From: a virus
Virus record (IMG/VR): IMGVR_UViG_3300045999_008996
Location: 62,001-126,000 of that record
Direction: 5' to 3' (one strand)
Length of the DNA stretch: 64,000 nt
In this document: piece by piece, positions 5,080 to 43,690 of the stretch
Layout of the letters: the number at the start of each line of letters is the position of its first letter
Position numbering within the stretch: the stretch's first letter is position 1
Notes under the pieces: generated by a model
Databases searched by the model: none
Told to the model about the DNA's origin: nothing
Seen by the model: only the letters and a program-made list of their open reading frames with translations
Made by a program: the position numbers and the translations under genes

Positions 5080-5236
5080 AGAGATTGTCCCCACCAATGT
5101 TTAGATGAAAAATTTGACCATTGTTGAGATAGATTCCCAACCACACAGCACGACCTTCCTCCATTACCTCATAATGAAAAAGTTTTACATTCTCTAAAAT
5201 TATTTCGTCTGGATTCTTTATAAATTTTGAGGACAT
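5048..5236 (-). CDS. Hypothetical protein, 62 aa
   Basis: Start ATG 5234-5236 (MSSKFIKNPDEIILENVKLF), the second of two possible in-frame Met codons. Predicted small beta-sheet protein. It is the first gene after promoter cassette 2, so it is probably expressed early. Confidence 0.6.
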   Translation of the reverse strand: MSSKFIKNPDEIILENVKLFHYEVMEEGRAVWLGIYLNNGQIFHLNIGGDNLYVNYSDETVD

Positions 5237-5251
5237 CAAGGTTTTCTCAAT

Positions 5252-6166
5252 TCATAAGTGTATTATACCAGAGAGGGCACCCGATTTCAAGTTCCCCTGT
5301 GCCAGTTTTTCAACTGCCACAATGTCCTTATGTCTTTTATATTTTCCTATGTAAATCCTATAGATAGAACTTTGGTCATAACCATTTTCTTTTGACCAAT
5401 TACTTAATCCACATTGAGTAATAATTTTTCCATCAGCAAAAGTAATTTTCCAATAGTTTGATTTATGATGGTTTTTTCCAATTTTTATTTTATTCTTTTT
5501 TCCTCTTCCCAAAACCCAACCTTCTCCAGGACATTTTTTGGAAAATTTGTTATTTCCATTTTCATCATTCCACCAATACTTACCTGTATTTGATTCACTT
5601 TGTTTTCTTTTTGTTTTTTCAGAATGTGATTTGCCATAAAGTGGATGATTTTCTTTTGCCATTTTACCTTTAAGAGATTCACTTATTTTTTTTCTGTGTT
5701 CTTCTGAAAGTGGTTTTCCATAAAGTATGCTATTCTCTCCTTTATGTGCATTACTTTGTTTTCTTTTGGTTTCTTCGCTATGTTTTCTTCCTAAATTATT
5801 TTCTTTTATTTTTTGTCTATGCTCTGCCGAAAGAATTTTGCCCGTATGTGCTATTCTCAATTTTTCTCTTGTTTCTTCACTTCTAATACTACCAGAAAGA
5901 CCCTCACCACCATCAGTTTTATTTCTCAAAATACCAGTTCCTAAATCTTTCCTACCAAACACGGCAATCATATACTTCTCGTGCTTAAATGCTTCTTCCT
6001 CTGTTAGGTTTTGTTTTAGAAGTATTATTCGGGATTTATCTTTTGGTGGATAAACTTCACCTCTTCCTTTTCTATATACTCTATTATCTTTACCTTTACC
6101 TATGTAATAAGGAGTTCTATCCTCTCGCAAATATGCATAGGTATAAAATCTGTTAGGATTTACCAT
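5252..6166 (-). CDS. GIY-YIG homing endonuclease with NUMOD3 repeats
   Basis: 304 aa from ATG 6164-6166 (MVNPNRFYTYAYLREDRTPY). The N-terminus holds YTYAYLRED..PYYIGKGK, the GIY-YIG nuclease core, with Arg and Glu further on (residues ~50-75). Residues ~90-190 carry at least four NUMOD3-type DNA-binding motifs (pattern SEETRRK.S.AHKG...YGKPLSEEH). Then comes KKCPGEGWVLGR and a C-terminal helical segment (residues ~235-290) like intron-encoded endonuclease repeats. It sits between unrelated small genes, as mobile endonucleases do. Its last ~20 codons run through the stem and -35 region of promoter cassette 2, giving an unusual tail (QGNLKSGALSGIIHL). A late promoter and paired arms lie just upstream. 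Confidence 0.9.
   Translation of the reverse strand: MVNPNRFYTYAYLREDRTPYYIGKGKDNRVYRKGRGEVYPPKDKSRIILLKQNLTEEEAFKHEKYMIAVFGRKDLGTGILRNKTDGGEGLSGSIRSEETREKLRIAHTGKILSAEHRQKIKENNLGRKHSEETKRKQSNAHKGENSILYGKPLSEEHRKKISESLKGKMAKENHPLYGKSHSEKTKRKQSESNTGKYWWNDENGNNKFSKKCPGEGWVLGRGKKNKIKIGKNHHKSNYWKITFADGKIITQCGLSNWSKENGYDQSSIYRIYIGKYKRHKDIVAVEKLAQGNLKSGALSGIIHL
5256..5318 (-). promoter_or_regulatory. Terminator-promoter cassette 2 (stem degraded)
   Basis: Minus-strand TTGAAA at 5285-5290, a 17-nt spacer and TATAAT at 5262-5267 give a good sigma70 promoter for the genes at 5236 and below. The surrounding sequence (AACTGGCACAGGGG...CTGGTATAAT) is clearly related to cassettes 4 and 5. Here the stem has lost pairing (GGGGAACTTG against CGGGTGCCC), so the terminator is doubtful, and the endonuclease frame reads right through it. 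Confidence 0.75.
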
Positions 6167-6177
6167 TTCTACTCTTA

Positions 6178-6271
6178 AATTGGTTCGCAATACTATTTAT
6201 ACAAGAAAAGGAGCATTTCTGCTCCTCTCCCACCTTAAAGATGCGAACCAATTAAGGTATTATTATTTATG
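6178..6271 (-). promoter_or_regulatory. Endonuclease 5' regulatory element, copy 1
   Basis: In minus-strand order: CATAAATA box (6264-6271), 10-nt spacer, arm A (6242-6253), terminator hairpin with 7-bp stem and GAAA loop followed by TTTTCTT (6209-6226), late promoter TATAAATA (6194-6201), 4-nt spacer, arm B (6178-6189), then 11 nt to the endonuclease ATG. Arms A and B are perfect 12-nt inverted complements. A second 7-bp helix (6232-6238 with 6252-6258) would enclose most of arm A in its loop. A read-through RNA can pair arm A with arm B next to the start codon; a transcript from the inner promoter lacks arm A. Confidence 0.75.
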
Positions 6272-6274
6272 TAA

Positions 6275-6571
6275 TTATTTTAAAATATCATCAACAGAAA
6301 CATAATCATAATCATCAATACAAAGTTTGAATCTTACAAAATCTAAAAAGTCCAATTCATCACACTCTGGAATATAATATTCTCCATCACCATCTCTATG
6401 AGTAAAATTAGCAAGATAATCCTCAAATACTACCATAATGGCAAGGGCACGAGAATGATCATGTTCTGTGATGGTTTTATGTGGGTGTGCCACAATTTTG
6501 GTGATACACTCAAAGAGTTCTTCACGGGTGTAAGAGAATGCTTTTGCTTCTTGGTTGAGTGTATAAGTCAT
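6275..6571 (-). CDS. Hypothetical protein, 98 aa
   Basis: Starts MTYTLNQEAKAFSYTREELF; helical N-terminal half with a conserved-looking 'HPHKTITEHDHSRAL' segment and a strongly acidic C-terminus. It precedes the endonuclease element, whose hairpin at 6209-6226 probably ends this transcript. Function unknown. Confidence 0.65.
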   Translation of the reverse strand: MTYTLNQEAKAFSYTREELFECITKIVAHPHKTITEHDHSRALAIMVVFEDYLANFTHRDGDGEYYIPECDELDFLDFVRFKLCIDDYDYVSVDDILK

Positions 6572-6810
6572 TTCAATCTTTCAAATACATTACGAATATG
6601 AGATACTGAAAGATAAAACTCTCTGGTGTTTTGTCCTCCCAATACGATTGCGTTGAGTTCTTCAAGTGCTTCGTTGATGAGTTCTTGTCGTTCTGCCACA
6701 TTCATAACTTTCTGATAATCTTCTTCAGATACTTTAGCAACAATTACTTCATTTGTTGCCTCTCGTTCGGAAGCAATCTCTAGCATTTCTTCAAGTGTTG
6801 GGTCAGTCAT
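6568..6810 (-). CDS. Acidic helical protein, 80 aa
   Basis: Start at ATG 6808-6810 (MTDPTLEEMLEIASEREATN) rather than the ATG four codons upstream, which lies inside the previous gene. Glu-rich helices, then a conserved-looking LGGQNTREFYLSVSHIRNVF segment at the C-terminus. Overlaps the next gene by ATGA. Unknown function. Confidence 0.6.
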   Translation of the reverse strand: MTDPTLEEMLEIASEREATNEVIVAKVSEEDYQKVMNVAERQELINEALEELNAIVLGGQNTREFYLSVSHIRNVFERLK

Positions 6811-7012
6811 TTTTTGCATCAAGTGTTTGCTTTACAATTCTGGCGGACTTTTGTGCTTTTGATTTCCATTCTTCAAGTTTTTCAATTCTATCACACAACT
6901 CGGTGATAATACCAATCAGACAATCATAATCAATATGCTCAATATCTTCACCATATTCTGGGTCATTATAGACATAGTAATTCAGTTCTTTCTTGAAGTT
7001 TCGGTCAGTCAT
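6803..7012 (-). CDS. Hypothetical protein, 69 aa
   Basis: Start ATG 7010-7012 (MTDRNFKKELNYYVYNDPEY). Acidic middle, then a coiled-coil C-terminus (ELCDRIEKLEEWKSKAQKSA). Probably oligomeric; no known family. Confidence 0.6.
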   Translation of the reverse strand: MTDRNFKKELNYYVYNDPEYGEDIEHIDYDCLIGIITELCDRIEKLEEWKSKAQKSARIVKQTLDAKND

Positions 7013-7014
7013 AA

Positions 7015-7197
7015 TCAATAGTTCTCATCAACATATAGTTCTGCCTCATCATCTTTTCCTTTATCATACATTACTTTGGCAAACTTCACAAAGGCATCAG
7101 GTTTTCCAGCAAACTCAGTCCATCCACAACCATCTTCTTCACACCATTCTTCGGTAAAGTATTCTTTTACCATTTGGAGGATTTCTTCAGTAGTCAT
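7015..7197 (-). CDS. Small acidic protein, paralogue of 7356-7574
   Basis: 60 aa (MTTEEILQMVKEYFTEEWCE). It shares with the gene at 7356-7574 the pattern 'T.EQI.Q....Y..E.W......W......ALLKFA+V+Y..G', so the two look like diverged copies. Overlaps the neighbour at 7187. Function unknown. Confidence 0.6.
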   Translation of the reverse strand: MTTEEILQMVKEYFTEEWCEEDGCGWTEFAGKPDAFVKFAKVMYDKGKDDEAELYVDENY

Positions 7198-7363
7198 TTA
7201 GAATACCAAGAGCATAAAGTTGTCGTTCAATTCTCTCACTTGGAGTTCCAGTAAAAGCACCAACAAGTTCGGGATTGAGAGTATCAAGTTTCTGTGCGAT
7301 GTTCCAGCACTTATCTACTTCATCTTGATAGTGATTTAGAAGTTCCGTTAGAGGTTCAGTCAT
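7187..7363 (-). CDS. Small helical protein, 58 aa
   Basis: ATG at 7361-7363 (another ATG directly before it) overlaps the end of the upstream gene. Reads MTEPLTELLNHYQDEVDKCW and ends TPSERIERQLYALGILNDY. Helical and acidic; no domain recognised. Confidence 0.55.
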   Translation of the reverse strand: MTEPLTELLNHYQDEVDKCWNIAQKLDTLNPELVGAFTGTPSERIERQLYALGILNDY

Positions 7364-7574
7364 CATCAGAACTCCAAGTATTCATTTCGGTGCTTACATT
7401 ATTACTTTCCCAACCTTCATCATAACCCACTTTGAAACCTTCTGTGTAGATTACTCGGGCAAACTTCAAGAGTGCATCTTCTTCTAAAGGTTGCCATACA
7501 GCATCACCAATATCACCAGACCACAATTCTCTCAAATATGAGGAAGCAATTTGAATAATTTGTTCGTCAGTCAT
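7356..7574 (-). CDS. Small acidic protein, paralogue of 7015-7197
   Basis: Start ATG 7572-7574 (MTDEQIIQIASSYLRELWSG), 72 aa. Shares the LKFARV+Y core with the gene at 7015-7197 but adds an acidic tail of ~25 residues. Overlaps both neighbours. Function unknown. Confidence 0.6.
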   Translation of the reverse strand: MTDEQIIQIASSYLRELWSGDIGDAVWQPLEEDALLKFARVIYTEGFKVGYDEGWESNNVSTEMNTWSSDDD

Positions 7575-7812
7575 CGTATTCAGTAATAAAAGCAAATGCT
7601 AAACAAAACCTTCGTTGTTGAAAATCTACACTCATAAGAGAATTACCAAAGAAAGAAAACAAGAGGTTGATACCACCAGCAGAATGAATTATTTTACCGG
7701 GAGTTTCACAATTCACCCAAAGTAATGATTTGTTTTTGATGATACCAAACTGCCAGGTGTGAGATACTTCACCATCCTGATAAGTTTGTTTGGAGTGTTC
7801 GTAGATTTTCAT
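7567..7812 (-). CDS. Hypothetical protein, 81 aa
   Basis: Starts MKIYEHSKQTYQDGEVSHTW; beta-rich first half, and a hydrophobic stretch around residues 47-60 (GINLLFSFFGNSLM) too short and polar to be a sure membrane helix. Overlaps neighbours by 4-8 nt. Function unknown. Confidence 0.6.
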   Translation of the reverse strand: MKIYEHSKQTYQDGEVSHTWQFGIIKNKSLLWVNCETPGKIIHSAGGINLLFSFFGNSLMSVDFQQRRFCLAFAFITEYDD

Positions 7813-8006
7813 TTTTCAAGAACAAACAGAGTGTCAGAAATCATTTGTTTGGTGAAGTAAATTTCACCTTTATCAGTTACGAAAGAAAAGTATTTGAGGT
7901 CAGAAACTTTTCCCAAAAACTCTCCAATCTCCGCATATTTCTTTTCATCATATTCATTTTCAACACCTTCAAAGACACCGTATTTTGTGTGTGCGATGAT
8001 TTTCAT
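7809..8006 (-). CDS. Small beta-rich protein, 65 aa
   Basis: Start ATG 8004-8006 (MKIIAHTKYGVFEGVENEYD) preceded by AAAGGA; this is the first gene after promoter cassette 3. Alternating hydrophobic strands and one acidic helix. No family assigned. Confidence 0.6.
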   Translation of the reverse strand: MKIIAHTKYGVFEGVENEYDEKKYAEIGEFLGKVSDLKYFSFVTDKGEIYFTKQMISDTLFVLEK

Positions 8007-8030
8007 TGGAGTTCCTTTGTGTATGAAGTC

Positions 8031-8083
8031 ATTATACGACAAAACCACCGACCACAGGAGGGTCAGTGTGCCAGTTCATCAAG
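8031..8083 (-). promoter_or_regulatory. Terminator-promoter cassette 3
   Basis: Minus-strand hairpin (8-bp stem, arms 8061-8068 and 8046-8053, one G-T pair) followed by GTTTTG, then TATAAT at 8031-8036. The -35 is poor (around CTGTGG). The flank CACTTGATGAACTGGCACA matches cassettes 4 and 5 and contains the stop codon of the upstream gene. Confidence 0.7.
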
Positions 8084-8390
8084 TGTACACCTGAACCTCA
8101 AAGGTGTATGATTTTCTAAAATGTTCCATATTCATATGCATACTCACCACTTTTGCATCACCTTTTTGAACTTTACCAGCAACATCCAAAAAAGTATCTT
8201 CTGTTGGTTCATAAGATATGAAGGCTTTTGTAGGGTCTACTGCTGTAATACCAGTATTTGAAGTTGCGACCGATAAAGTAGTTACACCAGATACATTCCA
8301 TTCTGGTGGCAATTCAATTTTTTCTTCTACTACTGGTTCTTCTTTCTTTCCGTAAAGTTCTTCGTATTTTGCGATTAAAGGATTAGTCAT
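8079..8390 (-). CDS. Hypothetical protein, 103 aa
   Basis: Starts MTNPLIAKYEELYGKKEEPV: a short helix, a Glu/Val linker (residues 17-28), then a beta-rich domain (VSGVTTLSVATSNTGITAVD). Ends with TACACTTGA inside cassette 3, so the cassette begins at its stop codon. Function unknown. Confidence 0.65.
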   Translation of the reverse strand: MTNPLIAKYEELYGKKEEPVVEEKIELPPEWNVSGVTTLSVATSNTGITAVDPTKAFISYEPTEDTFLDVAGKVQKGDAKVVSMHMNMEHFRKSYTFEVQVYT

Positions 8391-8620
8391 TATACCATAT
8401 CCTCAAAGTCTCTGGGTTCTACATAAGGGTCTTCACAACCAGTATAAGCATACATTTTATTATTCATCTTATACCAGTCGTGATTGAGAGCATACCAGAA
8501 GGTCATGCAATACCAATCATAAAATCCAAGTCCTTCATCATAAGAACCAAATACATTAGTTTCTTCTGGAACTCTCATCCAGATTTTCCAATAATCAAAG
8601 ATTAGTTTAGTGAGTTTCAT
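8390..8620 (-). CDS. Aromatic-rich hypothetical protein, 76 aa
   Basis: Start ATG 8618-8620 (MKLTKLIFDYWKIWMRVPEE), seven-nt spacing after AGGAGG. Many Trp, Tyr and Phe. The gene just upstream (8607-8783) has a similar 'W...F..WCY..TH' style, so the two may be distant relatives. Function unknown. Confidence 0.6.
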   Translation of the reverse strand: MKLTKLIFDYWKIWMRVPEETNVFGSYDEGLGFYDWYCMTFWYALNHDWYKMNNKMYAYTGCEDPYVEPRDFEDMV

Positions 8621-8783
8621 AATACATATCCTCCTCATATTTTACATAATCACTTTGAAGATAGTTGAAGAACTCTCCATCATCGTGGGTCATAGTATAG
8701 CACCATTCATCAAAACATTCACCAAACCACCACCAACCAGATTGGAGTTTCTCAAAGACATTCATAGGACGATTGTATTTCAT
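8607..8783 (-). CDS. Aromatic-rich small protein, 58 aa
   Basis: ATG 8781-8783; reads MKYNRPMNVFEKLQSGWWWF and contains FDEWCYTMTHDDGEFF. Overlaps the start of the following gene. Supported by frame, overlap and the AGGAGG it contains for the next gene. Confidence 0.55.
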   Translation of the reverse strand: MKYNRPMNVFEKLQSGWWWFGECFDEWCYTMTHDDGEFFNYLQSDYVKYEEDMYYETH

Positions 8784-8950
8784 CAGTCATACCTAATCTT
8801 CTTTGGATTGTTTTTGGTTCCACATACAGGACACTTTATACCATCCATCACCAGTTGTCTATCACAAGAATTACACCAAAAGAAACCATACTTTGCCTGT
8901 TTGGATTTCTCACGATTTCTTGGTGTATAGTCATCATCTATCTTTCTCAT
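8783..8950 (-). CDS. Zinc-ribbon protein, 55 aa
   Basis: Start ATG 8948-8950 (MRKIDDDYTPRNREKSKQAK). Two CxxC knuckles (CNSCDRQL and CPVCGTKNN) 16 residues apart form a classical zinc ribbon, used in other proteins for nucleic-acid or protein contact. Its stop overlaps the next ATG. Specific role unknown. Confidence 0.65.
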   Translation of the reverse strand: MRKIDDDYTPRNREKSKQAKYGFFWCNSCDRQLVMDGIKCPVCGTKNNPKKIRYD

Positions 8951-9578
8951 CCACCCAATAAAATCCAAGACAAGTTTTCATAAAGAACCGAACAATCATA
9001 CTCGGTTTATCAGGCATATAATACCTCAAATATCGTTGATTACCAATTGTATAATAACCTTTATGATTACTTCCCTGTTTGATTACAAAAGAGGTTTCAG
9101 TATAAGAACCAGCACTCAATCCAGTTGTTGTATAAGCAAGTTTTAGGTAAGGAAACTGTCCGTGCTCCTTTGCATATTCAAAGTTCTCAATAATTCTATC
9201 AAACTTTATGCTGTATAACTTTTCTGAAAGATATTTGGATTGATGGAACTTGTTTTTAGTATTCTCTATCTGGGCATCAATCTTCTCATCAAACTCTTGT
9301 GTGATTTCATCCAGAGTTTTAGGTTTCTCTGGGATAATAAGGAGATGTTTGACTTTATCAAAGTTTTCATTAGTTTCAGATACTTTCAATCCCATAGCAC
9401 AAAATACTGCCTCTACATCTTTGATAGAAGTTAGTTTAGTAGTATCTACATCATACCACTTACTTCCAATATGTAAAGTTCCTACTGGTGGAATATAAGT
9501 GTTGTTTTGAACGCTTGCTGGGTAAGTATCCAATACTGGTTGTCCTATGTTTTGTTCGGTTGGTTTCCAATCAGTCAT
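8934..9578 (-). CDS. Hypothetical protein, 214 aa
   Basis: Start ATG 9576-9578 (MTDWKPTEQNIGQPVLDTYP). Residues 1-50 are Pro/Thr-rich, 50-85 look folded, ~95-150 form a helical or coiled-coil stretch (DEITQEFDEKIDAQIENTKN), and the rest is a basic aromatic C-terminus. No known domain. It is the largest protein in this part of the small-gene region. Confidence 0.65.
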   Translation of the reverse strand: MTDWKPTEQNIGQPVLDTYPASVQNNTYIPPVGTLHIGSKWYDVDTTKLTSIKDVEAVFCAMGLKVSETNENFDKVKHLLIIPEKPKTLDEITQEFDEKIDAQIENTKNKFHQSKYLSEKLYSIKFDRIIENFEYAKEHGQFPYLKLAYTTTGLSAGSYTETSFVIKQGSNHKGYYTIGNQRYLRYYMPDKPSMIVRFFMKTCLGFYWVDEKDR

Positions 9579-9711
9579 AATTTTCAAGTTCCTCACACAA
9601 TTCTAACACATTATCATAAATCACAGGGAAATAGTCCAAAGAGTAAGAAGTGCTACCTCCATAAACATTATCAAACTCTACAAAAAGTTCTTGAAGTTTA
9701 TAATCAGTCAT
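9571..9711 (-). CDS. Small acidic protein, 46 aa
   Basis: ATG 9709-9711; reads MTDYKLQELFVEFDNVYGGS and ends ELCEELENYD. Overlaps both neighbours (ATGACTGA). No family; support comes from packing and codon pattern. Confidence 0.5.
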   Translation of the reverse strand: MTDYKLQELFVEFDNVYGGSTSYSLDYFPVIYDNVLELCEELENYD

Positions 9712-9884
9712 TTTGCCTCCATAGCATTAATCACAGCATCACGAGCACTTTTACCTTTTGCTCTATTCATAGGAAATCCAGTATTTATAAACACCCAATC
9801 ACTCTCACCATTCATTTTGAGAGAATGTGGTTTGAATTGATTGAGTAGAAACTCAAGGATTTCTGTGTCTGATGGTTCAGTCAT
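9708..9884 (-). CDS. Small hypothetical protein, 58 aa
   Basis: ATG 9882-9884 (MTEPSDTEILEFLLNQFKPH). A segment VFINTGFPMNRAKGKSARDA and a terminal helix suggest a folded alpha/beta protein. Overlaps both neighbours by ATGA. A TATAAATA at 9782-9789 lies inside the gene and may be chance. Function unknown. Confidence 0.55.
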   Translation of the reverse strand: MTEPSDTEILEFLLNQFKPHSLKMNGESDWVFINTGFPMNRAKGKSARDAVINAMEAK

Positions 9885-10057
9885 CGTATTCCAGTATCAA
9901 AGAGGTTTTTCAGTTCTTCATAAAGTGGTCGTAGTTCAACATATCTTCCATCATGTTTTAGATCACCAGTATCTTTTGTATATAATAGAAGTGTATAGAG
10001 TTGTCGTGCTTGGTCTTCTTGAAGTTCTACGACATAAGATTTTTTGATTTCAATCAT
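9881..10057 (-). CDS. Small hypothetical protein, 58 aa
   Basis: ATG 10055-10057 (MIEIKKSYVVELQEDQARQL). A strand followed by helices (YTLLLYTKDTGDLK, YEELKNLF). Same length as the next gene downstream but no evident sequence similarity. Function unknown. Confidence 0.55.
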   Translation of the reverse strand: MIEIKKSYVVELQEDQARQLYTLLLYTKDTGDLKHDGRYVELRPLYEELKNLFDTGIR

Positions 10058-10338
10058 TCTACATCCCCCAAATCCTTTTCGTCAATCAAAATCACAGTAT
10101 CAAAGGGGATTTCACGACCAAGACCACAATACTTACCAAGTTGATACATAAGGCTCCAAAGTTGGAACTTCACATAACCATCTTCATCTTCCTTTGGAGG
10201 TTCATAAGGATACTTATCAAGCATTCCACCAGCACCCTGAGCACTCCAAAAGTCATTATGGTCTTGTTCCAGCATTTTTTTGCCGTGTTCTGTGAGTTTC
10301 ACACGAACATTATAGTTGATGTTGAAGGATTTAGTCAT
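10054..10338 (-). CDS. Hypothetical protein, 94 aa
   Basis: Starts MTKSFNINYNVRVKLTEHGK. The opening 'YNVRVKLTEHGKKMLEQDH' strand-helix is reminiscent of small winged-helix-like phage proteins; an acidic central loop and FQLWSLMYQLGKYCG helix follow. The family is not certain. Overlaps both neighbours by 4 nt. Confidence 0.65.
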   Translation of the reverse strand: MTKSFNINYNVRVKLTEHGKKMLEQDHNDFWSAQGAGGMLDKYPYEPPKEDEDGYVKFQLWSLMYQLGKYCGLGREIPFDTVILIDEKDLGDVE

Positions 10339-10583
10339 AATTCAAGAAGTTTCTCAAGTTGTAGTTTTTGTTGGACGAGTTCAACACTTTTCACTCTTTC
10401 GTCATAAAATCTTTTCATATTCTCACGGATTTCTCTTTCTTCTGAGGTCAAATCCATTTGATATTGTAATTTCAAAAGAAGAATAGTTTCCAAATCTTTG
10501 AGGACACTTACTGGAATATCCAAAAACTCATCATAAGTCATTTTCCTATCCAAATAACAATGGACATAATCAACCAAATCCAT
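10335..10583 (-). CDS. Helical hypothetical protein, 82 aa
   Basis: Starts MDLVDYVHCYLDRKMTYDEF (a second Met at residue 15 is possible). Long charged helices with Leu repeats at the end (LVQQKLQLEKLLEL), probably coiled coil. Function unknown. Confidence 0.6.
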   Translation of the reverse strand: MDLVDYVHCYLDRKMTYDEFLDIPVSVLKDLETILLLKLQYQMDLTSEEREIRENMKRFYDERVKSVELVQQKLQLEKLLEL

Positions 10584-10678
10584 CCCGCAGTATATAAAAA
10601 TGTTTTTTTACCTTCAACAATAAGACCACCTACACAATAAATCTGTGAGATAATCAGGAAGACATCACTTTTTGTCAT
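10538..10678 (-). CDS. Small membrane protein, 46 aa
   Basis: ATG 10676-10678 (MTKSDVFLIISQIYCVGGLI). Two hydrophobic helices (residues 5-20 and 27-44) separated by a short charged loop EGKKT: a probable inner-membrane hairpin. Overlaps neighbours in the usual way. It may act in host takeover or lysis, but nothing shows which. Confidence 0.55.
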   Translation of the reverse strand: MTKSDVFLIISQIYCVGGLIVEGKKTFLYTAGWIWLIMSIVIWIGK

Positions 10679-10872
10679 TTGGAGTTCTCCAACTTGTAGA
10701 AATCATATTTGGTTTTACAAGCAGTTGGTTGTTTTATACAATACGAAATTGTTTTTTCTTGTGTTTCTTTTTGTGCTATTGATGTTCCATTAGTAAATCC
10801 CAGAGTAAAAAATAAACCAGCAGTAGCCATAAGAAGAATAAGAACTGGTGGGATGTCATTATCATCGTTCAT
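10675..10872 (-). CDS. Single-helix membrane protein, tandem copy A
   Basis: 65 aa: a short acidic N-terminus, one transmembrane helix (residues 9-28, PVLILLMATAGLFFTLGF), then an outside or inside domain ending TACKTKYDFYKLENSK. The final 15 residues are nearly identical to the neighbour at 10869-11054, so the pair is a tandem duplication. Two Cys (YCIKQPTAC) could form a disulfide. Function unknown. Confidence 0.65.
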   Translation of the reverse strand: MNDDNDIPPVLILLMATAGLFFTLGFTNGTSIAQKETQEKTISYCIKQPTACKTKYDFYKLENSK

Positions 10873-11054
10873 TTCTGGTTCTCCAACTTGTAGAAATCAT
10901 ACTTGGTTTTACAAGCAGTTGGTTTTTCTATGCAGTATGTAATTGTTTCTCTTCGTGTTGTTGATTCTGCGCCATTAAACCCCAACATAAAAAACAAACC
11001 AGCAATAGCAACAAAAAGAATAAGAAATGGGAAGAAATTATCGTCGTTGCTCAT
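10869..11054 (-). CDS. Single-helix membrane protein, tandem copy B
   Basis: Start ATG 11052-11054 (MSNDDNFFPFLILFVAIAGL), 61 aa; the earlier in-frame ATG is inside the previous gene. Same layout as copy A: acidic N-terminus, one membrane helix, then TYCIEKPTACKTKYDFYKLE. The nucleotide match to copy A is highest over the last ~50 bases, so the duplication is fairly recent or this end is under selection. Confidence 0.65.
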   Translation of the reverse strand: MSNDDNFFPFLILFVAIAGLFFMLGFNGAESTTRRETITYCIEKPTACKTKYDFYKLENQK

Positions 11055-11266
11055 TTCCGTGCCTCCCAATACTTACCTTCCATACCACATTCATAATACT
11101 TTCTCGCATGATCACAATACTTACCATTAGATCTTCCCGTCACAACATTTCCAGTCAAAGCAGGATGAAGGCATAAGTCAAATGTGTCTCCAAATCCAGT
11201 AATGCGAGCATTCCAATCTTTCTTATAAAAACGGCAGTCGCAACAGAGACGAATAGGTTCAGTCAT
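11051..11266 (-). CDS. Cys-rich small protein, 71 aa
   Basis: Starts MTEPIRLCCDCRFYKKDWNA; Cys at ~8, 9, 11, 32, 51 and 60 with His nearby (CLHP, CDHARKYYECG) suggest one or two zinc sites. It resembles small Cys-rich proteins in other phages and bacteria (recall). First gene after promoter cassette 4, with RBS-like GAAGTT... only weak. Confidence 0.65.
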   Translation of the reverse strand: MTEPIRLCCDCRFYKKDWNARITGFGDTFDLCLHPALTGNVVTGRSNGKYCDHARKYYECGMEGKYWEARK

Positions 11267-11289
11267 TTGAAGTTTTTATCTATGAAAGT

Positions 11290-11340
11290 ATCATACCAGA
11301 AAAGGCACCTGTTTTCAAGTGCCCCTGTTCCAGTTCGTCA
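11290..11340 (-). promoter_or_regulatory. Terminator-promoter cassette 4
   Basis: Minus-strand 8-bp hairpin (arms 11316-11323 and 11304-11311, loop AAAA) followed by TTTTCT: a good terminator for the gene ending at 11338. TTGAAA at 11313-11318 overlaps the stem, then a 17-nt spacer and TATGAT at 11290-11295. It shares the flanks GAACTGG and CTGGTAT with cassettes 2, 3 and 5. Confidence 0.8.
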
Positions 11341-11628
11341 AGTGTCCAACATCTTACGAATTTTATCACCAATCAATTCAAGAATACTTTTTTGTCTTGG
11401 AGACCAAGCACTATAATTCATACAAATGTGATTGTATAGTCGTGGAAACTGATTAACAAGATTACAATAATCACCCCCTGATTTCAAACATTTATCAAAT
11501 CCAGCGCCATTAGAACTTTTACAACAATGAATACAGTTACGGCAGTTGATAGCAAGACCAGAAGCAGAATCAACTTGAGTATCAATCAGTCCTTCCAGTT
11601 GTGCCCGTTTTTGTTCAAGATTGTTCAT
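11338..11628 (-). CDS. Cys-rich hypothetical protein, 96 aa
   Basis: Starts MNNLEQKRAQLEGLIDTQVD; a helix, then a Cys cluster in residues 29-70 (CRNCIHCC, CLKSGGDYC, HIC) likely to bind zinc, then a helical tail. Not the same as the 71-aa neighbour but of similar style. Its stop codon lies in cassette 4. Confidence 0.6.
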   Translation of the reverse strand: MNNLEQKRAQLEGLIDTQVDSASGLAINCRNCIHCCKSSNGAGFDKCLKSGGDYCNLVNQFPRLYNHICMNYSAWSPRQKSILELIGDKIRKMLDT

Positions 11629-11843
11629 AAGTTCTCCAATTCATCACATACATCAAGTATAGCACGGGCATCAAGCACCATATCTTCCACACCTTCCTCT
11701 TCACAACACTGATAGTATTGGAGTTGTTCTACTACCTCACGGAGAGCATTAGCAATCTCATATCCATCAACATTACAGGGATGTGGTTCATTCTTCCAGA
11801 ATGCTTCAAATACTTTTTGTGCTACTTCTTTTTTGTTAGTCAT
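11625..11843 (-). CDS. Acidic helical protein, 72 aa
   Basis: Start ATG 11841-11843 (MTNKKEVAQKVFEAFWKNEP), chosen over an upstream ATG inside the previous gene. Helical, with CC near residue 45 and an acidic C-terminus. Overlaps neighbours. Function unknown. Confidence 0.55.
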   Translation of the reverse strand: MTNKKEVAQKVFEAFWKNEPHPCNVDGYEIANALREVVEQLQYYQCCEEEGVEDMVLDARAILDVCDELENL

Positions 11844-11958
11844 ACCAACACATCCAAGTAATACCAAAAAATGAACCAAGCATAAATCCTACAGCAACAT
11901 TAGAAGGAACTAAAAAGGAAATAGCAATAATAACTGCCCAGAGTAGAAAGATTTTCAT
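11836..11958 (-). CDS. Tiny hydrophobic membrane protein, 40 aa
   Basis: ATG 11956-11958 (MKIFLLWAVIIAISFLVPSN). Almost wholly hydrophobic: one membrane helix or a signal-anchor followed by a second short one (VAVGFMLGSFFGITWMCW). The coding call rests on its exact fit between neighbours. Confidence 0.5.
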   Translation of the reverse strand: MKIFLLWAVIIAISFLVPSNVAVGFMLGSFFGITWMCWYD

Positions 11959-11963
11959 TTTAG

Positions 11964-12158
11964 TCAAATCGGATAAGGTTGTTGTGGGTCTTTATACCAC
12001 ACTTTCTTGTACAATAACCACGGTTCATCACTATTGATATTATGAACCATTTGTGCCATCCAGTGGAAACCACAAGAATCTACGGAATCCAAATAATGAA
12101 TGCCTGTTTTAGGACAGATAGTTCTTGTGACAGATACAAACTTAATTTTCTCAACCAT
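11964..12158 (-). CDS. Hypothetical protein, 64 aa
   Basis: Start ATG 12156-12158 (MVEKIKFVSVTRTICPKTGI). Beta-rich, with two Cys and a Trp-rich C-terminal half (EPWLLYKKVWYKDPQQPYPI). Unknown function. Confidence 0.6.
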   Translation of the reverse strand: MVEKIKFVSVTRTICPKTGIHYLDSVDSCGFHWMAQMVHNINSDEPWLLYKKVWYKDPQQPYPI

Positions 12159-12160
12159 AA

Positions 12161-12259
12161 TCAAACTCCGTCTGGTAGATTTCCTGTTACACAAAGAATA
12201 AAAGCAACAATAAAGAAAATCCCAAGTCCTACTGGAAGTGAGTAATCTGGGTCAGTCAT
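12161..12259 (-). CDS. Tiny membrane protein, 32 aa
   Basis: ATG 12257-12259 (MTDPDYSLPVGLGIFFIVAF); a single transmembrane helix (residues 9-26) with a short acidic N-terminus. Small size keeps confidence low, but the frame fits the overlapping series. Confidence 0.45.
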   Translation of the reverse strand: MTDPDYSLPVGLGIFFIVAFILCVTGNLPDGV

Positions 12260-12519
12260 TTGTGTTCTTTATACCAACTAAGGTCTCTTGGTCGTGTAGT
12301 AATTACATCCAAATAAAGTTGAAATCGTTTGTATCGGATATAAAATCCAAGCAAAAACCCCGAACTGATACACAAAGAAAATTCTGGGAGGATAGAATCG
12401 GAACCAAAATCATCCCACTGGACTGTAATATCAACTAGAGCAAACTTTTGGAATCTAAGGACTTGGAAAAACCATTCTTTTCCAAAATCTTCATAAGTTT
12501 CATAATCAAAGAGTTTCAT
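12256..12519 (-). CDS. Hypothetical protein, 87 aa, relative of 14020-14298
   Basis: Start ATG 12517-12519 (MKLFDYETYEDFGKEWFFQV). The layout 'F..E..EDFGKEW......R......ALVDI...W' and a central beta-rich part with FLLGFYIRYKR resembles the protein at 14020-14298, so the two are probably paralogues. No known domain. Confidence 0.55.
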   Translation of the reverse strand: MKLFDYETYEDFGKEWFFQVLRFQKFALVDITVQWDDFGSDSILPEFSLCISSGFLLGFYIRYKRFQLYLDVITTRPRDLSWYKEHK

Positions 12520-12793
12520 ACTTTGCCTCAACTTCTTTCACACGCTCCATGAAACTATCCTCTCCGTGGTCTCCACTATACAAATAGTCCACGTGCCTCA
12601 TAATTTCTGCCATCTTACGCATCTTGAGAAGTTGTTTCCTCAAATAATTGATAGTTTCAGGTGAGAAGTTGGGAGGAGCATACTCATACTCATCTGGTTT
12701 GTTGTTGTTTTGGATTTCTACTTCCAACTCATCAGCAAACTGTGCTACCTTGTAGTAATCATAACCGCAATCGCCAAAATGTCCGCCTGAAAT
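12506..12793 (-). CDS. Hypothetical protein, 95 aa, probable ATT start
   Basis: The coding pattern clearly extends upstream of the first ATG (12725-12727): residues preceding it read ISGGHFGDCGYDYYKVAQFA, like the N-terminus of a small phage protein family with GGHF..YDYYKV..FADELE. No ATG, GTG or TTG exists in frame, but ATT at 12791-12793 sits 7 nt after a perfect GGAGG. Promoter cassette 5 lies just upstream. Function unknown; helical, acidic. Confidence 0.6.
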   Translation of the reverse strand: MSGGHFGDCGYDYYKVAQFADELEVEIQNNNKPDEYEYAPPNFSPETINYLRKQLLKMRKMAEIMRHVDYLYSGDHGEDSFMERVKEVEAKYETL

Positions 12794-12820
12794 AGGATTT
12801 CCTCCTTTCTATCTGAACAT

Positions 12821-12872
12821 ATTATACCAGAGAAACACTTACTTCCAAGTGCCCTTGTGCCAGTTTCATAAG
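12821..12872 (-). promoter_or_regulatory. Terminator-promoter cassette 5
   Basis: Minus-strand TTGGAA at 12843-12848, 16-nt spacer, TATAAT at 12821-12826, reading into the 95-aa gene. A short stem (CACTT/AAGTG) followed by GTTTCT may still terminate the endonuclease transcript. The flank with CACTTATGAAACTGGCACA shows it belongs with cassettes 2-4. Confidence 0.75.
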
Positions 12873-12876
12873 TGGT

Positions 12877-13623
12877 CTAATTTAGTTTTCTTCCTAATAC
12901 CCATCCATCAGCAGGACATTCTTCACTTCTTTTACATTCTATTCCATTATTCCACCATTTTTTAGTTTTCATACTTTCACTTATTTTTCTTTTACATTCT
13001 TCAGATAATTCTTTTCCATAATTGGGATTATTTTTTCCAAGTTTAGATATTTTTATCTTGGATTTTGTTTCTTCAGAATGTTTTTTTCCTGTATTTGATT
13101 TGCGAAGTTTTTCTTTGTGTTCTTCTGTCAACGAAGGTTTATTTCTTCCTGTATGAGAAATGGAAATTTTTCTTTTATGCTCTTCAGAAAGAGATTTGCC
13201 GTAGTTGTGATGTTTATCTCCTTTTTGACTTTCGCTAAAATATCTTATCAACTCTTCAGGATGTTTTTTGCCATAAAATGGATTATTTTTTCCAGATAAT
13301 GATTTTCTCCACCTATTTTTTAGATTTTCATACAAAGTAGAATTATAATATCTATTGTGTTTTCCATCTTGAGATGCTCTCATCATCCAAAAAGCATAAG
13401 TCATTTTTCTGGATTTTTCATTATCAATACCATATCTTTTTATAAATGCCTTTTCTAATAATGCGTGAGCAATATAATGCTCCTTCCCAGTAAGAACAAC
13501 AACTCTATTATTCTTTCCAAAAATACTTATGGGAAATGTATGGTGTTTTTCTGTATAACCTTCAGGAGGAGTTCTGTTCTCTGCTTTCCTTATAAGGTTA
13601 CAATATATCTTTAGATAGTTCAT
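12877..13623 (-). CDS. HNH homing endonuclease with NUMOD3 repeats
   Basis: 248 aa from ATG 13621-13623 (MNYLKIYCNLIRKAENRTPP). Residues ~22-60 hold EKHHTFPISIFGKNNRVVVL and then TGKEHYIAHALLEKAF, an HNH nuclease core (HH, central Asn, EHxxxH). Residues ~105-215 carry about five NUMOD3-type motifs (GK..PxYGK..SEE...K.S...). The C-terminus EECPADGWVLGR matches the corresponding region of the GIY-YIG enzyme at 5252-6166, although the catalytic domains are unrelated. It stops just before cassette 5. Expected to be a free-standing mobile endonuclease cutting a related phage that lacks it. Confidence 0.9.
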   Translation of the reverse strand: MNYLKIYCNLIRKAENRTPPEGYTEKHHTFPISIFGKNNRVVVLTGKEHYIAHALLEKAFIKRYGIDNEKSRKMTYAFWMMRASQDGKHNRYYNSTLYENLKNRWRKSLSGKNNPFYGKKHPEELIRYFSESQKGDKHHNYGKSLSEEHKRKISISHTGRNKPSLTEEHKEKLRKSNTGKKHSEETKSKIKISKLGKNNPNYGKELSEECKRKISESMKTKKWWNNGIECKRSEECPADGWVLGRKLN

Positions 13624-13633
13624 TTCTATTCTA

Positions 13634-13730
13634 TTGAAACCGCATTAGTATTTATAATAGAAAAGGTGCCCAAAAGAGCACCCAATCTTATCTGTAGAGA
13701 TTGCGGTTTCAACAGATATTGTTATTTATC
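13634..13730 (-). promoter_or_regulatory. Endonuclease 5' regulatory element, copy 2
   Basis: Same order as copy 1: GATAAATA box (13723-13730), 10-nt spacer, arm A (13702-13712), terminator hairpin followed by TTTTCT (stem arms 13678-13682 and 13665-13669), late promoter TATAAATA (13649-13656), 4-nt spacer, arm B (13634-13644), then 10 nt to the ATG. Arms A and B are perfect 11-nt complements but differ in sequence from copy 1. A second 7-bp helix (13689-13695 with 13712-13718) again encloses arm A. Confidence 0.75.
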
Positions 13731-40787: not shown

Positions 40788-43649
40788 TCACACTATAAAA
40801 GACTGTAGTGCTGATGATAAAGCATTTGCTGCAGAACTCGTTGCAGCAAGATAACTACGAGGAGAACTTAATGGTGCGCTTGATGTAATAGTTTCTGTAG
40901 AGTAGTCTAACTTTTCAACTGTTGCTACTGGACCTGGATCACCACCACCAAAGTATCCTGCAATTGAATTACCTGTTGCAGCAAGAGCAATACGTGCAGC
41001 ACTTAATGGTGCACCAGGAACTGTTGATCTTGTATCAGTTGAATAAGTAATTTTATCCATTCTCGAAGATACATTAAGGTCTGGTTCATAACCCCCACCA
41101 AAATATCCTGCCGTAGAGTTTCCTGTTGCAGCAAGATACGCCCGATTAGAACTTAGAAAAGCCCCAGGGACAGTTGTTCTTGTATCAGTTGAATAAGTAA
41201 TTTTATCCATTGTTGAAAAAAGTGCTAATGCATCATTAGTACCACCACCAAAATATCCTGCCGTTGAGTTTCCTGTTGCAGCAAGTTGATAACGATTAGA
41301 ACTTAAGACTGCAGCAATTGGGGCAGCAGTTTCTGTAGAGTAGGTTAATTTTTGTATTGATGAAAATAGTACTACACCATTAGTTCCACCACCAAAGTAT
41401 CCTGCTAAAGAATTTCCTGTTGCAGCAAGTTGAGTACTTGTTGGATTTAATAAAGCGCCAGGAACTTGTGCTGTGGTATCAACAGAATAAGAAAGCTTAT
41501 CAATTGTTGATCTTGCGGGGTCAAAACTCAAACTAGGAGAACCACCACCAAAATATCCTGCTATTGAAGACGTCGTTGCATCAAGATTATAACTTGCAAC
41601 ACTTAATGATGCACCAGGAACTGCTACTGTTGTATCAGTGGAATAAGAAACCTTATCCATTGTTGCTGTTGCTCCACCCGGAGAAAATCCACCCCCAAAG
41701 TACCCAGCATTTGCTTGAACTGGAGCTGCAGTGATATTTTGTTGGGGTAATGCGTTTGCAGTAGAACTTGATGCCGCAAGAAAACTACGACCTGAACTTA
41801 GCGATGCGCTGGAAATTGTGGTTGTCGTATCAGTAGAATAATCAACCTTATCCATTGCAGAATGATATAATGGAGTAGGTCCAGGAGTAAAACCACCACC
41901 AAAGTATCCTGCTGTTGAGTTTCCTGTTGCAGCAAGACGACTGCGAGAAAAACCTAATGAGGTTGATGTTCTTGTATCGGTAGAATATTCAATCCTATCT
42001 ATAGTTGCTACTGGACCTGGAATACTAGGTTGAAAACCACCACCAAAATATCCTGCCACTTGGTTTCCTGTTGCAGCAAGATCATAACGTGCAGCACTTA
42101 ATGATGCACCAGGAACTGTTGATCTTGTATCGGTAGAATATTCAATCCTATCTATAGTTAATCCTGGACCAGGAAAACCACCACCAAAGTATCCTGATGT
42201 TGAGTTGCCCGTTGCAGCAAGACGACTACGTGCACTACTTAATGATGCACTAGGAACTGTTGTTCTTGTATCAGTGGAATAAGTGACCTTATCCATTGTT
42301 GCTACGTCAACAGCAGTAGGAGTACTAGGTTGAAGACCACCACCAAAATATCCTGCCACTTGGGTTCCTGTTGCAGCAAGGTAAAAACGCGAACCATTTA
42401 ATGTCGCCCCAGGAACTGTTGCTATCGTATCATTGGAATAAGTGACCTTATCCATTGTTGCGACACCTCCACCCCCAAAGTACCCATCAGTTGAGTTACC
42501 TGTTGCAGCAAGATATGCCCGAGCAGGAAAAATATTTGCCCCAGGAACTGGCGATGTGGTGTCAGTAGAATAAATTACTTTATCCATTGTTGACCGAACG
42601 CCGGGAGATCCTGGACCAAAACCACCCCCAAAGTATCCTAAGTTAAATGAAGATCTTCCTGATATAAAGTTTCTTGATTTTGCTAAGTTTGGTAGTGGTA
42701 TTGAAGGAAGTCCGTTTGCTCTGAGACTTGATGCCGCAGCACCGTAAACAGCAGCAAACAAAGATGCATTGGGAACTGATGCGGTTGTATCGATGGAATA
42801 ATTGATCTTATCAATTGAAGATAAATACCATCCACCACCAAAATATCCTGCTATTGAATTTCCTGTTGCAGTTGGTCCTCGGCGAGCATCCCTTAAGTTT
42901 GTTGATTGAGTAACAGGTATTCTTGTGTCATTGGAGTAAGTAATCTTATCTACTGTTGAATAATATCCAGGAGAACCAGGACCATCACCACCACCAAAAT
43001 ATCCTGATGTTGAGTTGCCAGTTGCCGCAAGATCTCTGCGGTTAATACTTAATGTTGTTGTGGGAAGTAATGCTGACGTATCATTGGAATAAGTGACCTT
43101 ATCCATTGTTGACACTGAACCAAAAATACTACCACCACCAAAATATCCTGCTACTTGGTTTCCTGTTGCAGCAAGTCTATCTCGATTAGAACTTAAGTTT
43201 GCACCAGGAACTGTTGAACTTGTATCAGTTGAATAAGTAATCTTATTCAGTATCGAAAACCAATTAAAATATCCTGCTATTGAATTTCCCGTTGCCGCAG
43301 TTGTTGATTCTAAGTTTGCACTAGGAACTGCTGTTCTTGTATCAGTTGAATAAGTTAATTTATCCGTTTTTAAATAACCACTAAAGTATCCCGCTATTGA
43401 GTTTCCTGTTGCAGAAATATAACTATTACTGAAACTTAGGTTTGCCCCAGGAACTGGTGATGTAGTGTCATTTGAATAAGTTATCTTAGTTATCGACGAA
43501 TAAACTAAGGGGTAAACCCCACCACCTGCAAAATATCCAGTGTTTGCCGCCGGTTCATTAATAAAAACCTCATCTGAATTAGTCCAGATTTTCTTTTTTA
43601 TTCTGCTACGAGCATCAAGTAACCTAAAAACACCTCTGGTATCAGACAT
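40788..43649 (-). CDS. Kelch-like repeat protein, 18 blades (3 x 6)
   Basis: 953 aa. N-terminus MSDTRGVFRLLDARSRIKKK, then SDEVFINEPAANTGYFAGG. I count 18 repeats of ~40-50 residues with GYFGGG, a short loop, MDKVTYSTDT.. and an LAATGN linker. They fall into three sets of six, separated by ANGLPSIPL... and ANALPQQNIT... linkers, and end in ANALSSALQ. GG followed by an aromatic strand fits kelch-type propeller blades, so three six-bladed propellers are likely. Blades 2 and 3 have lost GGG. Paralogue of the next gene upstream; probably a virion surface protein. Late box at 43682-43689. Confidence 0.8.
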   Translation of the reverse strand: MSDTRGVFRLLDARSRIKKKIWTNSDEVFINEPAANTGYFAGGGVYPLVYSSITKITYSNDTTSPVPGANLSFSNSYISATGNSIAGYFSGYLKTDKLTYSTDTRTAVPSANLESTTAATGNSIAGYFNWFSILNKITYSTDTSSTVPGANLSSNRDRLAATGNQVAGYFGGGSIFGSVSTMDKVTYSNDTSALLPTTTLSINRRDLAATGNSTSGYFGGGDGPGSPGYYSTVDKITYSNDTRIPVTQSTNLRDARRGPTATGNSIAGYFGGGWYLSSIDKINYSIDTTASVPNASLFAAVYGAAASSLRANGLPSIPLPNLAKSRNFISGRSSFNLGYFGGGFGPGSPGVRSTMDKVIYSTDTTSPVPGANIFPARAYLAATGNSTDGYFGGGGVATMDKVTYSNDTIATVPGATLNGSRFYLAATGTQVAGYFGGGLQPSTPTAVDVATMDKVTYSTDTRTTVPSASLSSARSRLAATGNSTSGYFGGGFPGPGLTIDRIEYSTDTRSTVPGASLSAARYDLAATGNQVAGYFGGGFQPSIPGPVATIDRIEYSTDTRTSTSLGFSRSRLAATGNSTAGYFGGGFTPGPTPLYHSAMDKVDYSTDTTTTISSASLSSGRSFLAASSSTANALPQQNITAAPVQANAGYFGGGFSPGGATATMDKVSYSTDTTVAVPGASLSVASYNLDATTSSIAGYFGGGSPSLSFDPARSTIDKLSYSVDTTAQVPGALLNPTSTQLAATGNSLAGYFGGGTNGVVLFSSIQKLTYSTETAAPIAAVLSSNRYQLAATGNSTAGYFGGGTNDALALFSTMDKITYSTDTRTTVPGAFLSSNRAYLAATGNSTAGYFGGGYEPDLNVSSRMDKITYSTDTRSTVPGAPLSAARIALAATGNSIAGYFGGGDPGPVATVEKLDYSTETITSSAPLSSPRSYLAATSSAANALSSALQSFIV

Positions 43650-43681
43650 TTTTTATAATTGGTTTCCTACAAGCATAATAT

Positions 43682-43689
43682 TATTTATT
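43682..43689 (-). promoter_or_regulatory. Late promoter AATAAATA
   Basis: In the 41-nt gap between the two kelch-like genes, 33 nt before the downstream ATG; TAGGAAACC follows as a ribosome site. Matches the NATAAATA motif. Confidence 0.6.
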
Positions 43690-43690
43690 C

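Follow-up and report, generated by a model that had tools for sequence, protein, structure and literature searches.

Control by a hairpin combined with a late promoter has been described for I-TevI, I-TevII, I-TevIII (an HNH enzyme) and segB of T-even phages, as well as for the HNH enzyme mobE of Aeh1, and simple late-promoter hairpins are known for the T4 genes soc and e (PMC2988022). In cyanophage S-PM2, the antisense RNA CfrI overlaps a homing-endonuclease gene and is a suspected regulator (PMC2984593). Against this background, we examined a stretch of 64,000 nucleotides of an IMG/VR virus record (record G000:C1 of 222,563 bases, positions 62001–126000; hereafter, the window), the nearest annotated relatives of which are cyanophages, e.g., Synechococcus phage S-SRM01. 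Two elements of about 100 bases each precede genes for a GIY-YIG and an HNH homing endonuclease in the window. We consider it likely, from sequence comparison and predicted folding, that these elements are hairpin-gated, late-only 5′ control modules of mobile nuclease cassettes, of the kind known from I-TevI and mobE. On our best reading, the module adds a terminator, an arm-presenting hairpin and a putative second late promoter to that plan.

Both elements lie on the minus strand and share one layout, which the first-pass annotation had described and which we confirmed to the base: box 1 (NATAAATA), 10 nt, arm A, a terminator, box 2 (TATAAATA), 4 nt, arm B, 10–11 nt and ATG, with promoters and terminators assigned by motif. 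Element 1 has its 5′ boundary at the late-promoter-like box 1 (CATAAATA, 6264–6271), followed after 10 nt by arm A (AATTGGTTCGCA, 6242–6253). The last two bases of the 5′ strand of a further helix, termed P1 (ACCTTAA, 6252–6258), overlap arm A, and its 3′ strand (TTAAGGT, 6232–6238) lies beyond the arm. An intrinsic-terminator-like hairpin (GGAGC/GCTCC, 6225–6210) with TTTTCTT completes the upstream half (6203–6225). Box 2 (TATAAATA, 6194–6201), the putative late promoter of the GIY-YIG gene, stands between the arms, and 4 nt separate it from arm B (TGCGAACCAATT, 6178–6189), the predicted 5′ end of the late mRNA; 11 nt further on is the ATG (6166–6164) of a 304-residue gene (5252–6166). Element 2 repeats this order. 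Its box 1 (GATAAATA, 13723–13730) overlaps the TGA stop of the upstream gene, and a 10-nt spacer leads to arm A (TTGAAACCGCA, 13702–13712), overlapped by the last base of the P1 5′ strand (TATCTGT, 13712–13718; 3′ strand ACAGATA, 13689–13695). There follow a terminator-like hairpin (GGTGC/GCACC, 13682–13665) with TTTTCT (together 13659–13682), box 2 (TATAAATA, 13649–13656) as the putative late promoter of the HNH gene, 4 nt, arm B (TGCGGTTTCAA, 13634–13644; again the predicted 5′ end of the late mRNA), 10 nt and the ATG (13623–13621) of a 248-residue gene (12877–13623). As had also been claimed, the arms are perfect complements within each copy (12 and 11 nt) and differ in sequence between copies, and the 7-bp P1 helix around arm A is itself compensated between the two elements. 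Complementary arms of at least 11 nt accompany just these two of the 21 NATAAATA boxes on both strands of the window. Neither the window nor 11 loci that bear the element gave a relevant match to the curated covariance models of Rfam.

To place the two copies among their relatives, homologues of both proteins were collected from IMG/VR, and late-promoter/start regions were taken without any requirement for arms. Self-complementary arms of at least 9 bp were present at 49 of 93 distinct starts (53%), as opposed to 2.4% after arm windows had been swapped among loci; in 43 of these 49 armed starts, [A/C]TAAATA occurs 13–20 nt upstream of arm A. Since plain MAFFT alignment misplaced the variable arms, covariation was judged by such self versus non-self comparisons and by a register anchored only on boxes 1 and 2. 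In that register, 58% of arm cells were Watson–Crick pairs (shuffle mean 38%, maximum 45%), and every register shift gave lower pairing than the true register. The element is widespread beyond the window, where the earlier annotation had proposed a motif search: an arm-blind scan for the DNA pattern returned 127 viral places, 106 of them with arms of at least 8 bp, whereas among the 96 places that this pattern matched in cellular genomes (257 Gb), only two had arms. The paired arms are not a product of chance. The idea that pairing is kept while sequence changes, drawn initially from two copies, now extends to 101 distinct arm pairs comprising 1,244 bp—1,181 Watson–Crick and 63 G–U pairs. The latter point to pairing of RNA rather than DNA; they are skewed in orientation (arm-A G with arm-B U in 54 cases, the reverse in 9), and several are located where the arm helix extends into the P1 5′ strand. 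P1 covaries as well: its own complement is present in 78% of cases versus 15% for the complement of other groups, with pair variants such as CCTG/CAGG, CCTT/AAGG, TCTG/CAGA, CTCT/AGAG and CCTA/TAGG. Arm B starts 4–5 nt past box 2, at the expected +1 position, in 148 of 172 elements, and a terminator-like hairpin was found in 125 of 160. Arm identity changed at least 44 times on a tree of 69 proteins; part of these changes will be exchange of whole modules rather than stepwise compensation, and either route requires that matched arms be kept. Taken together, these comparisons support a conserved, covarying RNA element that precedes catalytically different nucleases.

The two window proteins illustrate this last point. 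Both carry NUMOD3 repeats and match PHROG homing-endonuclease families, with a weaker NCBIfam match below cut-off. A GIY-YIG motif (FYTYAYL...PYYIGKG) can be read in one, and the other has an HNH-like N-terminus. The description of the two as unrelated homing endonucleases is thus right for their catalytic N-terminal regions; the NUMOD3 repeats, however, are common to both. Two proteins labelled ‘translation initiation factor 2’ (NC_070963.1 gp114 and MN695335.1 gp45) are homologous to the GIY-YIG/NUMOD3 homing endonuclease of the window.

The wider collection extends the range of nucleases considerably. By BLAST linkage, the genes downstream of the module form eleven N-terminal groups, including three large GIY-YIG-like groups, HNH, EndoVII-like, DUF7487/homing-endonuclease-like and TnpB groups, and one with a weak PD-(D/E)XK match. 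The TnpB group matches OrfB_IS605, Cas12f1-like_TNB and the NCBIfam model guided_TnpB; its members include the gene at 5141–6340 of locus L286, and three more elements of that protein group carry the module in the form seen in the window (class I). A single arm class precedes unrelated nucleases, TnpB included, and the module moves without regard to protein ancestry. S-SRM01 has six class I copies (gp030, gp066, gp075, gp091, gp114 and gp297) and one copy of a variant, class II (gp152). One copy is present in B23. In the window phage, the class I copies number three, the third lying in L004, beyond the ends of the window; there is also one of class II. Compared across copies, the putative parts form a cassette-borne unit with a conserved layout, in which box 1 is followed by the P1 hairpin, whose loop contains arm A, and then by the terminator, box 2, arm B and the start codon. 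Upstream halves seldom occur on their own: the orphan L040 and the remnant L285 retain box 1, P1/arm A and the terminator before a baseplate-type gene, with the nuclease gene and arm B gone. A description of the element was not found in the literature, most subscription journals lying outside the coverage of that search.

How such a module might work can be outlined as follows. Cassettes would sit within or beside early genes, and the terminator would halt most transcription coming from upstream. RNA that reads through would refold, so that arm A and the P1 5′ strand pair with arm B and a few bases beyond it—an extended helix of 15–18 bp in the two window copies—and this helix would keep ribosomes from the stretch immediately preceding the start codon. 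Late in infection, box 2, as a gp55-type promoter, would initiate at or near the initial base of arm B, giving an mRNA that lacks arm A and could be translated. The nuclease would then be made only late, irrespective of which genes neighbour the insertion site. Box 1 would probably act as a second late promoter, with a transcript running from P1 to the terminator. Folding predictions are consistent with this scheme: the arm A–arm B helix has a pair probability of 0.98 in read-through RNA, and the start region is unpaired at 0.28 in read-through RNA versus 0.62 in the late mRNA (160 elements). P1 and the extended arm helix share bases and are thus alternative structures in the predicted folds. 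The surroundings of the cassettes also bear on the scheme. An early-promoter-like sequence (CTGGCACA..ACTTG..GGTATAAT) is common to the ends of both nuclease genes (5262–5305 and 12821–12863, minus strand), the genes ending within it or shortly before it; the C-terminus of the GIY-YIG ORF, EKLAQGNLKSGALSGIIHL, is its translation. Since this sequence follows both cassettes, the transcription units around them appear to be early ones, a setting that would call for a late-only gate.

The parallel with I-TevI raised by the first-pass annotation stands in its essentials. As in the I-TevI/mobE group, a putative late promoter lies inside an inverted repeat, the late transcript would lack the upstream arm, and predicted folding hides the start region in read-through RNA and exposes it in the late form. 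The gate also serves both GIY-YIG and HNH nucleases in that group, so its sharing between catalytically unrelated enzymes, which had been presented as an addition, was overstated and is not new in kind (PMC2988022). The window module differs in several ways: the space between its arms holds an intrinsic terminator and a separate hairpin that covaries, the unit opens with a second box of the late type, one layout recurs across many copies in many phages, and the carriers include TnpB and other nucleases. It also differs in having no consensus Shine–Dalgarno sequence; the module is therefore best described as a variant that would work like the I-TevI/mobE family, and not as a strict member.

Three points weigh against late-only gating as a full account. 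The leaders AAGAGTAGAAATG and AATAGAATAGAAATG contain no consensus Shine–Dalgarno sequence (AGGAG), so that sequestration would concern the start region in general. The same phages also have simple late-promoter hairpins with neither terminator nor P1 nor box 1 (e.g., S-SRM01 gp207), which implies that these three parts are not needed for simple gating. Finally, the gating model leaves box 1 unexplained. The T4 gene 49, encoding endonuclease VII, has a simple late-promoter hairpin. In S-SRM01, the gene gp207 (also endonuclease VII; L292, 47040–47190) is preceded by ATATAAATA within a perfect inverted repeat of 20 bp, a simple hairpin gate that has neither terminator nor box 1. Such soc- and e-type hairpins share the inverted repeat around TATAAATA with the module described here, but have no box 1, P1 or terminator. 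The window holds a possible further case at 43649–43715 (minus strand), where 10-bp arms (CTACAAGCAT/ATGCTTGTAG) surround AATAAATA before an ORF of 953 residues, possibly a simple hairpin-gated late gene.

Box 1 deserves closer attention in this context. Sequence conservation starts exactly at this box, with none before it. In S-SRM01, the site of the HNH cassette is empty; the upstream gene is present there with a terminator and with an early promoter, without TAAATA, and the upstream gene's own terminator sits at the position of the cassette terminator. A second site lies between a DUF1825 gene and a gene-32-like single-stranded-DNA-binding gene; there, TAAATA is missing from ten short intergenic regions (the window phage's L007 among them), while nine other loci have longer, cassette-sized gaps. 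TAAATA was thus found in none of 11 empty sites, from which it follows that box 1 arrives with the cassette; a late promoter already present at the target was rejected on this ground. The box also behaves as a promoter motif would. In the literature, the late motif of cyanophages is given as NATAAATA (PMC2984593). Upstream of ORFs in S-SRM01 and the window phage, ATAAATA is enriched 58-fold and CTAAATA 19-fold, GTAAATA and TTAAATA hardly at all, and the first variable base of box 1 (A 77%, C 17%, T 2%, G 2%) shows a tolerance like that of the phages' late promoters. P1 starts 4–5 nt past box 1, the same spacing as from box 2 to arm B. Two other roles were considered and rejected. As a mere upstream stop codon, box 1 supplies a stop in many copies, yet the A/C preference is unchanged where it does not, and the box is also retained directly after tRNA-like 3′ ends; a leader peptide from an ATG or GTG after box 1 would meet an immediate stop in CCTTA variants. 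Judged by motif and spacing, it is probably a second late promoter, and we infer that its transcript would be an RNA of about 60 nt, ending at the terminator and antisense to the nuclease mRNA at its 5′ end. Taken as a whole, the upstream half has the look of a complete gene for a small RNA.

From here it is a short step to a possible, though in our view rather unlikely, alternative: that box 1, P1 with arm A and the terminator form a stand-alone late small-RNA gene, whose RNA of about 60 nt pairs in trans, by means of its loop, with arm B at the start of the nuclease mRNA and dampens nuclease synthesis in a dose-dependent manner. The upstream half would then be an autonomous antisense gene beside its own target, swapped among unrelated mobile nucleases (GIY-YIG, HNH, TnpB)—a prospect that we hold with the same reserve. 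If true, it would give phage mobile elements an RNA-based, self-limiting expression. The cassette-borne box 1 with its late-type first base and its distance to P1 speaks for this possibility, as do a putative promoter and terminator that bracket the antisense stretch, the position of arm A in a hairpin loop (median self duplex −23 kcal/mol) and the simpler makeup of the cis hairpins in the same phages. CfrI of S-PM2 is similar in being a cyanophage RNA that overlaps a homing-endonuclease gene as a possible regulator; however, it is about 225 nt long, is antisense to the nuclease gene and psbA, joins both, and is not a tandem unit. Two predictions of a trans-acting RNA failed. Arms are shared as often within genomes (5 of 92) as between them (95 of 1738; permutation P(≤ observed) 0.62), and two identical arms occur on one contig, so that no selection for separate specificities is seen and arms as incompatibility specificities can be rejected. 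Likewise, the accessibility of arm A (0.66) is practically that of shuffled (0.65) and swapped arms (0.65), which dismisses selected loop accessibility. With both predictions gone, the trans-acting RNA was ranked as a rival; should box 1 fire, the existence of an RNA of about 60 nt is more probable than a dedicated function for it in trans.

The class II elements also bear on this rival, as they present arm A in a hairpin loop without any promoter for it. They consist of a conserved GTGGGCAGCAAC–arm A–GTTGCGTAAGTCCCAC hairpin, a putative late promoter and an arm B adjoining or close to the ATG; examples are L290 47550–47700, G000:C1:147193–147235 and loci L030, L126, L224, L326, L394 and L403. 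Like class I, they have arm B at the predicted mRNA start and precede GIY-YIG or HNH genes; unlike class I, they lack box 1 and a consistent terminator. The internal loop is highly conserved, which suggests a recognised RNA structure, and the element has no Rfam match.

Much further behind stands a role at the DNA level, which we regard as improbable: the arms would be protein-binding half-sites, as in an I-TevI-like operator, or recombination or homing sites. They do flank the late promoter, which recalls the overlap of operator and promoter in I-TevI (PMC2988022), and arm classes recur at similar upstream flanks; from that flank comparison, some rows listed as having unrelated proteins were set aside as unreliable, owing to an error in pair order. 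However, the repeated changes of arm class show that arms do not track the protein, one class stands before unrelated nucleases up to TnpB, and the G–U pairs break DNA palindromes while keeping RNA pairing. An autorepressor operator of the I-TevI type, which calls for a protein-specific site, was rejected on the same two grounds of arm switching and service to unrelated proteins. An ordinary gene junction, in which the upstream gene's terminator is followed by a late promoter and the arms are functionless, is very improbable and is contradicted by the observed covariation: such junctions are common, and the cassette terminator does take the place of the upstream gene's terminator in the single empty site that was studied closely, but fixed spacings, 101 differing complementary arm pairs and P1 covariation are not accounted for, and the same pattern occurs without arms in cellular genomes.

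Late-only gating of mobile nuclease cassettes hence remains the reading that we favour. While the T4 hairpins are known gene by gene, here one portable promoter/RNA module would serve several unrelated kinds of nuclease in many cyanophage-like contigs, including the transposon-type RNA-guided nuclease TnpB. S-SRM01, an isolate with seven copies (one variant counted), makes timing, translation and the possible small RNA accessible. More broadly, the findings suggest that late-only expression is a general need if selfish nucleases are to persist in lytic phages, and that such nucleases may acquire it as a ready-made part.

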